This document shows positions 19,338-24,275 of a stretch of 64,000 nt of DNA, piece by piece. The stretch covers positions 22,346 to 86,345 of the forward strand of contig JADHWI010000004.1 in assembly GCA_016783565.1 (NCBI GenBank), in the 5' to 3' direction. The notes under the pieces were generated by a model. It worked only from the letters and a program-made list of their open reading frames with translations. It was not told the origin of the DNA and did not search any database. The stretch is from Kiritimatiellia bacterium. GTDB taxonomy: Bacteria; Verrucomicrobiota; Kiritimatiellia; UBA8416; JADHWI01. The stretch's first letter is position 1; the number at the start of each line of letters is the position of its first letter. A program made the position numbers and the translations under genes.

Positions 19338-19432
19338 CCGCTAATTAGATTAGCATATCGATGCGGGTACGACAACCGGTAATTTGAGACGAAAAGAGTA
19401 GCGTTTTTTGTCGCTGCCGTTCGGATAAAAGG

Positions 19433-19591
19433 ATGATGAAAATGAAGCCCATAGGAACGATCCATACGCCATTCACTGACCCAGCGGGAATGCCTATCCA
19501 GCCCGCGGGGGCCTCCGGCGTGAAGGGCACTGTCGAAGTTTTGGAAGAATACCGAGGGGGGCTGAAGGATCTCGATGGGTTTTCCCATCTC
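19433..19591 (+). pseudogene. Truncated trmO/tsaA 5' fragment (tRNA-methyltransferase family)
   Basis: Only the first ~53 codons of a TrmO-like protein are present; no TrmO C-terminal sequence recognised elsewhere in the window. Confidence 0.75.
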
Positions 19592-21055
19592 CCAAAACGG
19601 AATTCTCGCTGGTATGTCTGCGTGGCCATAGCACTCATGCTCGGTGTAAGCGTACTTCTTGCCGGTGCTGAGGAAGCAAAGAGACCGAACGTCCTTCTGA
19701 TAGCCATAGACGATCTGAATGACTGGGTCGGATGTATGGGCGGACACCCGCAGGCGAAGACGCCGAATATTGATCGGTTGGCCGCTCGGGGAGTGCTGTT
19801 CAACAATGCCCACTGTCAGTCCCCCGTGTGCAACCCCTCACGGGCCAGCATGATGACATCGCTCTATCCGGCGACTACGGGTATCTACTTTCTCAGCCCT
19901 GACCTCAGTGCATCACCTGTTGCCAGGAAGAATGTACTCTTACCTCATCGCTTTGAGAAAGAAGGATATCATGTCACCGGGGCTGGCAAATTGTTCCATG
20001 GTAATCAGAACAAGAAGTACCTGTCCAATTATGCCGGTTCGTTCGGAGGCTTTGGGCCCAGGCCAAGGAAGAAACTCTCATCTTTTCCCGGACATCCCCT
20101 ATGGGACTGGGGAGTCTTTCCGGATCGCGACGACGAAATGCCGGATCATAAGATCGCCAAATGGGGGGTGTCTCAACTACAGAAGAAGCACGACAAACCA
20201 TTATTCCTGGCCACCGGCTTCTATCGTCCACATGTTCCTCAGTACGCACCTCAGAAATGGTTCGACATGTATCCCCTGGACTCCTTAAAACTTCCCGCCG
20301 TCATGGAGAACGATCTTGGTGACTTATCTGAGTATGCGATCAATCTGACACGGCTCAAACACGTGTCACCCACTCATAGCTGGGTGATGAAGAACGATGA
20401 GTGGAAGCCGCTGGTTCGGTCCTATCTGGCCTGTATGAGCTTTGTGGATCATCAGGTTGGCAAGCTTATGGATGCACTGGATAACAGCCCCTACAAAGAC
20501 AATACCTTCGTTGTGCTTTATACTGACCATGGTTTTCACCTGGGAGAGAAGGAACGTTGGGCCAAGCGCAGTCTTTGGGAGGATGGCACGCGAACACCCA
20601 TGGTCATCGTCGGTCCCGGCGTTGCCAAGGGTAGAGTTTGCAAGAAGCCTGTTCAGTTGTTGGATATCTATCCAACCCTATTGGATGTGGCAGGCTTGAA
20701 GGCTGACCCTAAGCTTGAGGGTCATTCCATGACGCCATTGCTGAAGAATCCTGAGGCAGATTGGCCTTATATGGCTCGAACCAGTTTTGGCCCAGGCAAC
20801 TATGCCATACGCTCAGAACGCTATCGCTTCATCCATTACAATGACGGCAGTGAGGAGTTTTATGACAATGCGGAGGACCCCAATGAATGGAAGAACCTGA
20901 TCGAGACCCCTGAGCTGGTTGCGCTGATAGAGGAACACCGAACTTTTTTGCCGAAGAGCACCCATCCGATCCTTGGAAAGGACTCAACAGGACATGCAGC
21001 TTTCAACGCAAGCAAAAGAAATGCCAGCAAACCGGATGCAGGCGACAGCAAATAG
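19433..21055 (+). CDS. Sulfatase (iduronate-2-sulfatase-like) with an in-frame N-terminal TrmO/TsaA fragment
   Basis: 540 aa. Residues ~1-53 match the TrmO/TsaA (UPF0066) N-terminus (KPIGTIHTPFTDPAGMPIQPAGASGVKGTVEVLEEYRGGLKDLDGFSHL). Then RNSRWYVCVAIALMLGVSVLLAGAEEAKRPNVLLIAIDDLNDW and SPVCNPSRASMMTSLYPATTGIY (sulfatase CxPSR motif). Confidence 0.85.
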   Translation: MMKMKPIGTIHTPFTDPAGMPIQPAGASGVKGTVEVLEEYRGGLKDLDGFSHLPKRNSRWYVCVAIALMLGVSVLLAGAEEAKRPNVLLIAIDDLNDWVGCMGGHPQAKTPNIDRLAARGVLFNNAHCQSPVCNPSRASMMTSLYPATTGIYFLSPDLSASPVARKNVLLPHRFEKEGYHVTGAGKLFHGNQNKKYLSNYAGSFGGFGPRPRKKLSSFPGHPLWDWGVFPDRDDEMPDHKIAKWGVSQLQKKHDKPLFLATGFYRPHVPQYAPQKWFDMYPLDSLKLPAVMENDLGDLSEYAINLTRLKHVSPTHSWVMKNDEWKPLVRSYLACMSFVDHQVGKLMDALDNSPYKDNTFVVLYTDHGFHLGEKERWAKRSLWEDGTRTPMVIVGPGVAKGRVCKKPVQLLDIYPTLLDVAGLKADPKLEGHSMTPLLKNPEADWPYMARTSFGPGNYAIRSERYRFIHYNDGSEEFYDNAEDPNEWKNLIETPELVALIEEHRTFLPKSTHPILGKDSTGHAAFNASKRNASKPDAGDSK

Positions 21056-21198: not shown

Positions 21199-22737
21199 GT
21201 GTATCTTTACCGGATGCGTAAATGGATAAGGAGTCCGTGGAAGGACAGGTTCCGGCAACATGCCTATACGCACAACATAGCTCTACTCTACGGGAAGACA
21301 AAGGGTATTGAAGTGGAAACAACACGACACAATTTTGTGATAACTGTAGCTCTCATTGCTATGTGCGTGCTGTCACCCTGGACTGCATCTTCGGCTGAAG
21401 CTAAAACAAAACCCAACATCATTCTTTTGTTTATCGACGACATGGGCTGGGCTGATTTTTCCTGCTTCGGCAATAAGGATGCAGCCACGCCTAACATAGA
21501 CAATATAGCGAAAGAGGGTATTGCCTTTGAGCAATTCTACGTGAACTCTCCTATCTGCTCACCCTCGCGCGTTGCGATCTCCACGGGGACCTACCCACAA
21601 CGCTGGCGGATCACCTCGTATCTGGCACATCGCAAGGCAAATAGGAACCGCGGTATTGCGAATTGGCTTGATCCACAAGCACCCATGCTGGCCCGTAGCC
21701 TCAAGGACGCCGGTTATACTACTGGTCACTTCGGAAAGTGGCACATGGGGGGGCAGCGAGATGTAACCGATGCACCCGCGATCACTGATTATGGATTTGA
21801 CGAATCATTGACCAATTTTGAGGGGCTTGGCCCAAAACTCCTGCCATTGACGATAAACAAAGAAGGTAAAGTGGGGCGCATCTGGAAGGACGCCGAACGA
21901 CTGGGAAAACCCGTGATCTGGATGCAGCGATCTGAAATCACTACTGGATTTATCGATGCAGCCATTAGGTTCATGAAATCCTCGAACGAGGCGGGCAAAC
22001 CATTCTATGTGAATATATGGCCTGATGACGTCCATAGCCCATTCTGGCCCTCCTATGAGCGTATCAAGAAAACGAGCAACAAACGTGAACTTTATCTGGC
22101 CGTCCTGGAAGAAATGGATAAGCAATTTGCCAAGCTCTTTGATTTCATCAAAGGGAATAACGACCTGCGCAAGAATACCATTGTTCTTGTCTGCTCAGAT
22201 AATGGACCAGAAAAGGGTGCAGGGTTGGCTGGTCGTTTTAAAGGATTTAAGACCCATTTATACGAAGGAGGCATTCGCTCATCCCTCATAGTATGGGCAC
22301 CAGGCTTGATGGAGATGAATGCGGTGGGTTTGAGAAATAAAGAGTCGGTATTTTCCGCCATTGATCTAACACCTTCCCTGATAAAATTGGCTGATGCCAA
22401 AGCGCCAGACAACATCAACTACGATGGGGAAGATCTTCTTGATACCTTGTTGGGGAAATCAAAAGCATCACGTAAGAAACCTATTTTCTTTGGTCGACCG
22501 CCAGACCGGAAAAATTTCTATGGATTTAAAAACCTGCCTGATCTTGCCGTTCGCGATGGAAAATGGAAGTTGCTATGTGATTTCGATGGCGGGAGACCAG
22601 AGTTATATGACTTAATTAGCGATCCAGGCGAAACTACGAACCTTGCAGAGGCACAATCCAGGAAGACGAAAGAGCTCAAAGAAAGGCTCTTGGACTGGTA
22701 TCGATCCATGCCGTCTTCTTCTCCTTTGGGGCTGTAG
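21199..22737 (+). CDS. Sulfatase, secreted
   Basis: 512 aa in the ORF track; KPNIILLFIDDMGWADFSCFG, SPICSPSRVAISTGTYPQRW, GKWHMGG, SDNGPE. The true start may be the GTG near 21312, ahead of a signal peptide (NFVITVALIAMCVLSPWTASSAEA). Confidence 0.92.
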   Translation: MYLYRMRKWIRSPWKDRFRQHAYTHNIALLYGKTKGIEVETTRHNFVITVALIAMCVLSPWTASSAEAKTKPNIILLFIDDMGWADFSCFGNKDAATPNIDNIAKEGIAFEQFYVNSPICSPSRVAISTGTYPQRWRITSYLAHRKANRNRGIANWLDPQAPMLARSLKDAGYTTGHFGKWHMGGQRDVTDAPAITDYGFDESLTNFEGLGPKLLPLTINKEGKVGRIWKDAERLGKPVIWMQRSEITTGFIDAAIRFMKSSNEAGKPFYVNIWPDDVHSPFWPSYERIKKTSNKRELYLAVLEEMDKQFAKLFDFIKGNNDLRKNTIVLVCSDNGPEKGAGLAGRFKGFKTHLYEGGIRSSLIVWAPGLMEMNAVGLRNKESVFSAIDLTPSLIKLADAKAPDNINYDGEDLLDTLLGKSKASRKKPIFFGRPPDRKNFYGFKNLPDLAVRDGKWKLLCDFDGGRPELYDLISDPGETTNLAEAQSRKTKELKERLLDWYRSMPSSSPLGL

Positions 22738-22937: not shown

Positions 22938-24275
22938 ATGGTGAGCGATAAGAAGAGTTTTGTTCTTGATACGAATGTGTTGTTGCACAATGCGGAATGC
23001 ATTGAGTGCTTTGCGGACAATTCGGTTGTGATCCCGATGGCCGTGATTGAAGAGCTGGATAAATTCAAGAGCCAGAGTAATGAGCTGGGGCGCAATGCCC
23101 GACAGGTCATCCGGCATTTGGATGCATTGCGGGCTCAGGGTAATTTGCGTGATGGCGTTCCATTGACATCCGGTGGCGAGCTTAAAATCATGTCGCAAAC
23201 TTTCCCCTCTGCAGACTCGGAGCTTGTCGAAGATATTCCGGACAACCGTATCCTGCTGGTTGCCGCAGTGCTGCATCGTGCCGGTGAACGTGTGATTTTT
23301 GTCAGTAAGGATATCAATGCCCGGTTGAAGGCCGATGCGCTCGGTATTGAGGCGCAGGATTTTGAGAAAGAAAAAATAAATTTTGATGAATTGTATACGG
23401 GATACTCCGATGTGGAAGTATCTGCCGAGGTGATTGAAGCGTTCTTTGCCACCAATGTGCTTGAAGGCGTTGATGATTTGGGGAGATATCCCAACGAGTT
23501 TCTGAGTTTGCACAGCGACAATGGAGAGCGAAAGACGGCTCTGGCGCGGACGGTGAAGCCGGGGACGATTTCGCACCTTTCGAGCAAATACGAAAAGATA
23601 TGGAACGTGCAGGCCCGAAATCGTGAACAACGCATGGCGATTGAGTTGCTCATGGATCCTGATGTTCAGCTTGTCACGCTGGTGGGCATGGCGGGTACAG
23701 GCAAGACGTTACTTGCTCTTGCTGCTGCGCTACAATGCACAGAGAAGAATGGACGCTACGATTCTGTGTTGGTGAGTCGACCTGTTGTGCCTTTGGGCAA
23801 GGATATCGGTTACCTGCCTGGTGATAAGGACGAGAAGTTGGCGCATTGGATGCAGCCTATCTTTGATAATCTGGCGTTTTTGTTGCGGCCGGCACCCCAG
23901 ATGGCTGGAAAGAAAAAGAAGAGCACGGTTACTACGCAGCAGCGAATCGATAAGCTTCTAAAGAGTAATACCCTTGTTCTTGAGGCGCTTACGTATATCC
24001 GGGGACGATCTATTCCTCGTCAGTATGTGATTGTGGATGAGGCGCAGAATCTGACCCCGCACGAGGTGAAGACGATTATCAGTCGGGCAGGGGAGGGGAC
24101 TAAGATGGTGCTGACGGGAGACCCGTATCAGATTGATAATCCGTATCTTGATGCGTCCAGCAATGGGCTCACCTATGTGGCCGAGCGCATGAAGGTGCAC
24201 CAGTTGCACGGACATCTGACGCTGAAGACCAGTGAGCGTAGTGCGTTGGCTGCCATTGCTGCGGAGTCGTTGTAA
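22938..24275 (+). CDS. PhoH family protein with N-terminal PIN domain
   Basis: 445 aa; SFVLDTNVLLHNAECIECFADN (PIN), VTLVGMAGTGKTLLALAAAL (Walker A), YVIVDEAQNLTPHEVKTIISR. Confidence 0.92.
   Translation: MVSDKKSFVLDTNVLLHNAECIECFADNSVVIPMAVIEELDKFKSQSNELGRNARQVIRHLDALRAQGNLRDGVPLTSGGELKIMSQTFPSADSELVEDIPDNRILLVAAVLHRAGERVIFVSKDINARLKADALGIEAQDFEKEKINFDELYTGYSDVEVSAEVIEAFFATNVLEGVDDLGRYPNEFLSLHSDNGERKTALARTVKPGTISHLSSKYEKIWNVQARNREQRMAIELLMDPDVQLVTLVGMAGTGKTLLALAAALQCTEKNGRYDSVLVSRPVVPLGKDIGYLPGDKDEKLAHWMQPIFDNLAFLLRPAPQMAGKKKKSTVTTQQRIDKLLKSNTLVLEALTYIRGRSIPRQYVIVDEAQNLTPHEVKTIISRAGEGTKMVLTGDPYQIDNPYLDASSNGLTYVAERMKVHQLHGHLTLKTSERSALAAIAAESL

Follow-up and report, generated by a model that had tools for sequence, protein, structure and literature searches.

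In-frame joining of a 5' trmO fragment to a sulfatase gene in a Kiritimatiellia MAG, probably by a recent rearrangement

TrmO (TsaA/YaeB; TIGR00104, PF01980) is the tRNA m6t6A37 methyltransferase, and residues R92, D125 and K136 of the E. coli protein belong to the AdoMet site and have been tested by mutation (PMC4132733). The S1-type formylglycine sulfatases form the family PF00884, and these bacteria abound in sulfatases, of which one Kiritimatiellota isolate carries 165 genes (PMC10880615). The two families meet in one frame of the DNA analyzed here, a stretch of 64,000 nucleotides (the window) from a Kiritimatiellia MAG of 2.42 Mb in 77 contigs that is 84.8% complete. The ORF list of the window gave an uninterrupted plus-strand frame at 19433-21055, of 540 amino acids and free of stops or frameshifts. 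Residues 1-53 correspond to the N-terminal third of TrmO, and residue 54 onward to a sulfatase signal peptide followed by a complete PF00884 domain. The translated chimeric ORF probably spans 19442..21055 (+), as judged from the Shine-Dalgarno spacing and the N-terminus of TrmO relatives; the longest ORF starts at 19433.

The 5' trmO fragment (19433..19591, +) holds codons 1-53 of about 155, and most of the AdoMet site is missing from it. Searched alone, it matched TIGR00104 (tRNA_TsaA/TrmO; residues 1-53 on positions 3-54 of 143, E=1e-6) and columns 1-37 of the 116 of Pfam TrmO_N (PF01980). These scores lie under the curated cut-offs (17.3-21.9 versus 26.8 bits for Pfam, 23-29 versus 93 bits for TIGR00104) because the N-terminal third alone is present; judged by sequence, the TrmO match of residues 1-53 is not due to chance. 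Compared with its nearest intact counterparts in Kiritimatiellia, the fragment shows 71-83% identity, the MPIQP stretch included, but the chimera lacks residues 54 to ~155. It is thus no full-length TrmO beta-barrel: of Q25, R92, D125 and K136 (E. coli numbering), only the MPIQP stretch, the counterpart of Q25, is retained. Since the counterparts of R92, D125 and K136 (PMC4132733) are lost, no TrmO activity is expected of the fragment, and TrmO function is presumably gone at the 19433-21055 locus.

The nearest trmO at the nucleotide level is that of a Kiritimatiellae MAG (G331), which matches the window at 83.6% over 159 nucleotides, exactly 19433-19591, with 83% amino acid identity; no nucleotide match between the window and this gene was found outside that interval. 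Hence the trmO/sulfatase join is sharp to within a few bases, and the switch that a sequence-only reading of this DNA had placed near 19591 is real. In the junction zone (19589..19600, +) the end of TrmO homology and the onset of sulfatase homology fall within a few bases, in a sequence not repeated elsewhere in the genome. No terminal or long direct repeats occur at the junction, so an insertion element at this place was rejected, and the junction was absent from the viral contigs searched. An Rfam search gave no RNA element match, promoter and terminator scans yielded sites no more numerous than in shuffled sequence, and the structure predicted for the product had a mean pLDDT of 46, too low for use.

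The sulfatase catalytic domain and C-terminal region occupy 19685..21052 (+). The PF00884 match covers residues 85-421 (173.8 bits, E=6.6e-51) and is followed by an SGSH_C region. The C/S-x-P-S-R motif is intact as CNPSR and, like the metal-site motif DHGFHLGE, is conserved with the orthologs; by homology, 19685..21052 is an S1 formylglycine sulfatase. An anSME maturase is encoded on contig C45 of the same genome (TIGR03942, 414.6 bits). The nearest solved chains by sequence are those of an arylsulfatase (6hhm), choline-sulfatases (6fny/7pth) and iduronate-2-sulfatase (5fql). Three orthologs were found in genomes of the same family and order, with 79% (G001), 72% (G015) and 65% (G021) identity; all of them have their own ATG and signal peptide, lack the TrmO part and lie in unrelated neighbourhoods. 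The chimera shares with these S1 enzymes the full catalytic domain, CNPSR and the signal peptide, but it has no start codon of its own for the sulfatase and its N-terminal 53 residues are foreign. A second, unfused sulfatase lies downstream (21199..22737, +); its longest-ORF start appears too far upstream, and by inspection GTG 21313, after AAAGGG, is the more probable true start.

Neither half of the chimera shows excess change, which speaks against the earlier suggestion that it is a decaying product. The TrmO fragment has a dN of 0.10 and a dS of 0.54 to G331, with no acceleration. The sulfatase has a dN of 0.126 to G001, with a near-saturated dS of about 2.1, and its branch is not accelerated, since its distance to G015 is 0.204 versus 0.228 for G001. 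These observations are in keeping with a recent event; for the same reason, the lack of decay is in itself no proof of expression or use.

A Shine-Dalgarno-like AAAGGA is located at 19428..19433 (+), 8 nucleotides from ATG 19442. The sequence-only reading had recognized this element, but had taken it to precede ATG 19433, which it in fact overlaps. Because of this overlap, and because ATG 19442 (MKPIGTIHTP...) is well spaced and is the usual TrmO start, translation probably begins at 19442 rather than at 19433. The sulfatase signal peptide (19592..19669, +) has kept its n-region PKRNSRWY (+3), the hydrophobic core VCVAIALMLGVSVLL and a cleavage-like AGA|E, contrary to the earlier view that a charged N-region was lacking. 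That it has no ATG of its own was borne out by the N-termini of the three orthologs (MRTLVTNRERLV..., MGNKMKHLV... and MPKGNHYIKHG...), a comparison by which the window sulfatase has lost just its ATG and a few codons. From the junction to the hydrophobic core the frame contains no ATG, GTG or TTG, and expression from the trmO start, as previously proposed, is the most plausible arrangement. About 58 residues would then stand upstream of the core. It is possible that so long an N-terminal extension blocks export. Very long signal sequences are known from exported autotransporters (PMC2805444), but the extension of the chimera did not evolve for export.

We looked for the missing part of trmO, a check that the earlier reading had proposed, and for comparable fusions. 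Neither an intact trmO nor its 3' part was found elsewhere in the assembly, which at 84.8% completeness could leave the rest of the gene in the unassembled 15% of the genome. A weak match on contig C74 (E=0.16) overlaps an rsmI-like gene and was judged to be chance. The sole other PF01980 match in this genome, a 148-amino acid protein on contig C49 (27938-28258), is a different gene; it is TrmO_N-like with an apparent signal peptide, and secretion would be odd for a protein related to tRNA methyltransferases. As to the fusion, the 30 named contig matches of the TrmO fragment included no fused relative and none extended beyond residue 53; nor did the same fusion occur among the class and phylum matches or in the three closest sulfatase orthologs. 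The fusion is thus, by these searches, private to this Kiritimatiellia MAG within the collections covered.

Of the 346 genomes searched in the class, 47 matched the TrmO fragment, as did 41 of 388 in the phylum sample, so trmO is patchy in the class and not the core tRNA-modification gene that it had been called; the best reading is that in this lineage it is dispensable. Its relatives, at about 50 loci, are mostly free-standing and of ~155 amino acids. The clear exceptions are the window itself, one copy in G010 (contig C74), the G040 gene (contig C79), which has an in-frame internal deletion of about 60 codons, and the G331 gene, cut by a contig end. The G010 copy (C74:41905-42054) is truncated and ends in ...DLEGFSCEE, no more than two codons from the point at which trmO breaks off in the window. 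Both G010 and G040 thus resemble the window in the loss of trmO sequence by deletion, but in neither is the remnant joined in frame to another gene, and G010 has an intact second trmO on contig C134, with flanks related to those of the C74 copy. A breakpoint hotspot, considered from the G010 similarity, was rejected, as the C74 copy is a duplicate locus with deletions of its own and two breakpoints are too few.

The explanation that we consider likely is a recent, lineage-specific rearrangement that destroyed trmO and left an in-frame sulfatase to the trmO start. A deletion, or an illegitimate recombination without long repeats, would have joined codon ~53 of trmO to the codons just after the sulfatase start, taking away the 3' two thirds of trmO together with the sulfatase ATG. 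The intact sulfatase frame would now be read from the trmO ribosome-binding site, with its start at 19442, and the product would be a sulfatase whose signal peptide has an n-region of ~58 residues. Such a protein might either be exported and cut at AGA|E or be kept in the inner membrane by an uncleaved helix. The junction is known from a single MAG, as assembled sequence alone, and an assembly chimera, in which reads from two separate loci, one with trmO and one with a sulfatase, were wrongly joined at ~19592, would also account for its presence in no other record and has in its favour a 77-contig, incomplete assembly. We hold this to be unlikely, because the two parts meet exactly in frame, well within a contig of 86 kb and with even GC across the join, and no stretch of more than 17 bases around the junction recurs in the genome; the absence of such a repeat makes an assembly error less probable. 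An established, selected TrmO_N-sulfatase architecture would be in keeping with the frame and with conserved residues on either side, but it is extremely improbable for a fusion missing from every other genome examined, whose fragment is a third of TrmO with the key residues gone.

A genuine rearrangement need not have made anything useful. The sulfatase, its own ATG gone, may have just lost its start and become a silent pseudogene, one random join in three falling in frame by luck and about 58 residues now preceding the signal core. This seems rather doubtful for 540 codons still open, with CNPSR and the metal-site motifs intact, the rate not raised and a good Shine-Dalgarno and ATG upstream. 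An internal start within the trmO fragment would give a shorter n-region and ease the export problem, and the nearest candidates, TTG 19541 and GTG 19520, are both in frame; as neither has the convincing Shine-Dalgarno that ATG 19442 has, we regard this as quite improbable. The one-in-three chance also means that selection for frame cannot be shown. A working start-site capture kept by selection, in which the sulfatase would owe its expression and a membrane-anchored rather than free location to the dead trmO remnant, is put forward as a tentative idea only.

If real and expressed, the locus under the favoured rearrangement would be a fresh case of one gene acquiring its new start from what is left of a second gene, and, if real, it would show that trmO can be lost in the class Kiritimatiellia. 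The chimera points to no new system; it is better seen as an ordinary gene fusion, a clean curiosity and not an established fused enzyme. Its surroundings have changed as well: phoH (22938-24275 in the window) adjoins the two sulfatases, which stand before it where many relatives carry deoA-cdd, so the region has been rearranged. Elsewhere, a TrmO-like domain was seen in a 509-amino acid open frame of another genome (G309, contig C76) with 268 residues upstream of it, which may be another fusion or a composition-driven open frame.
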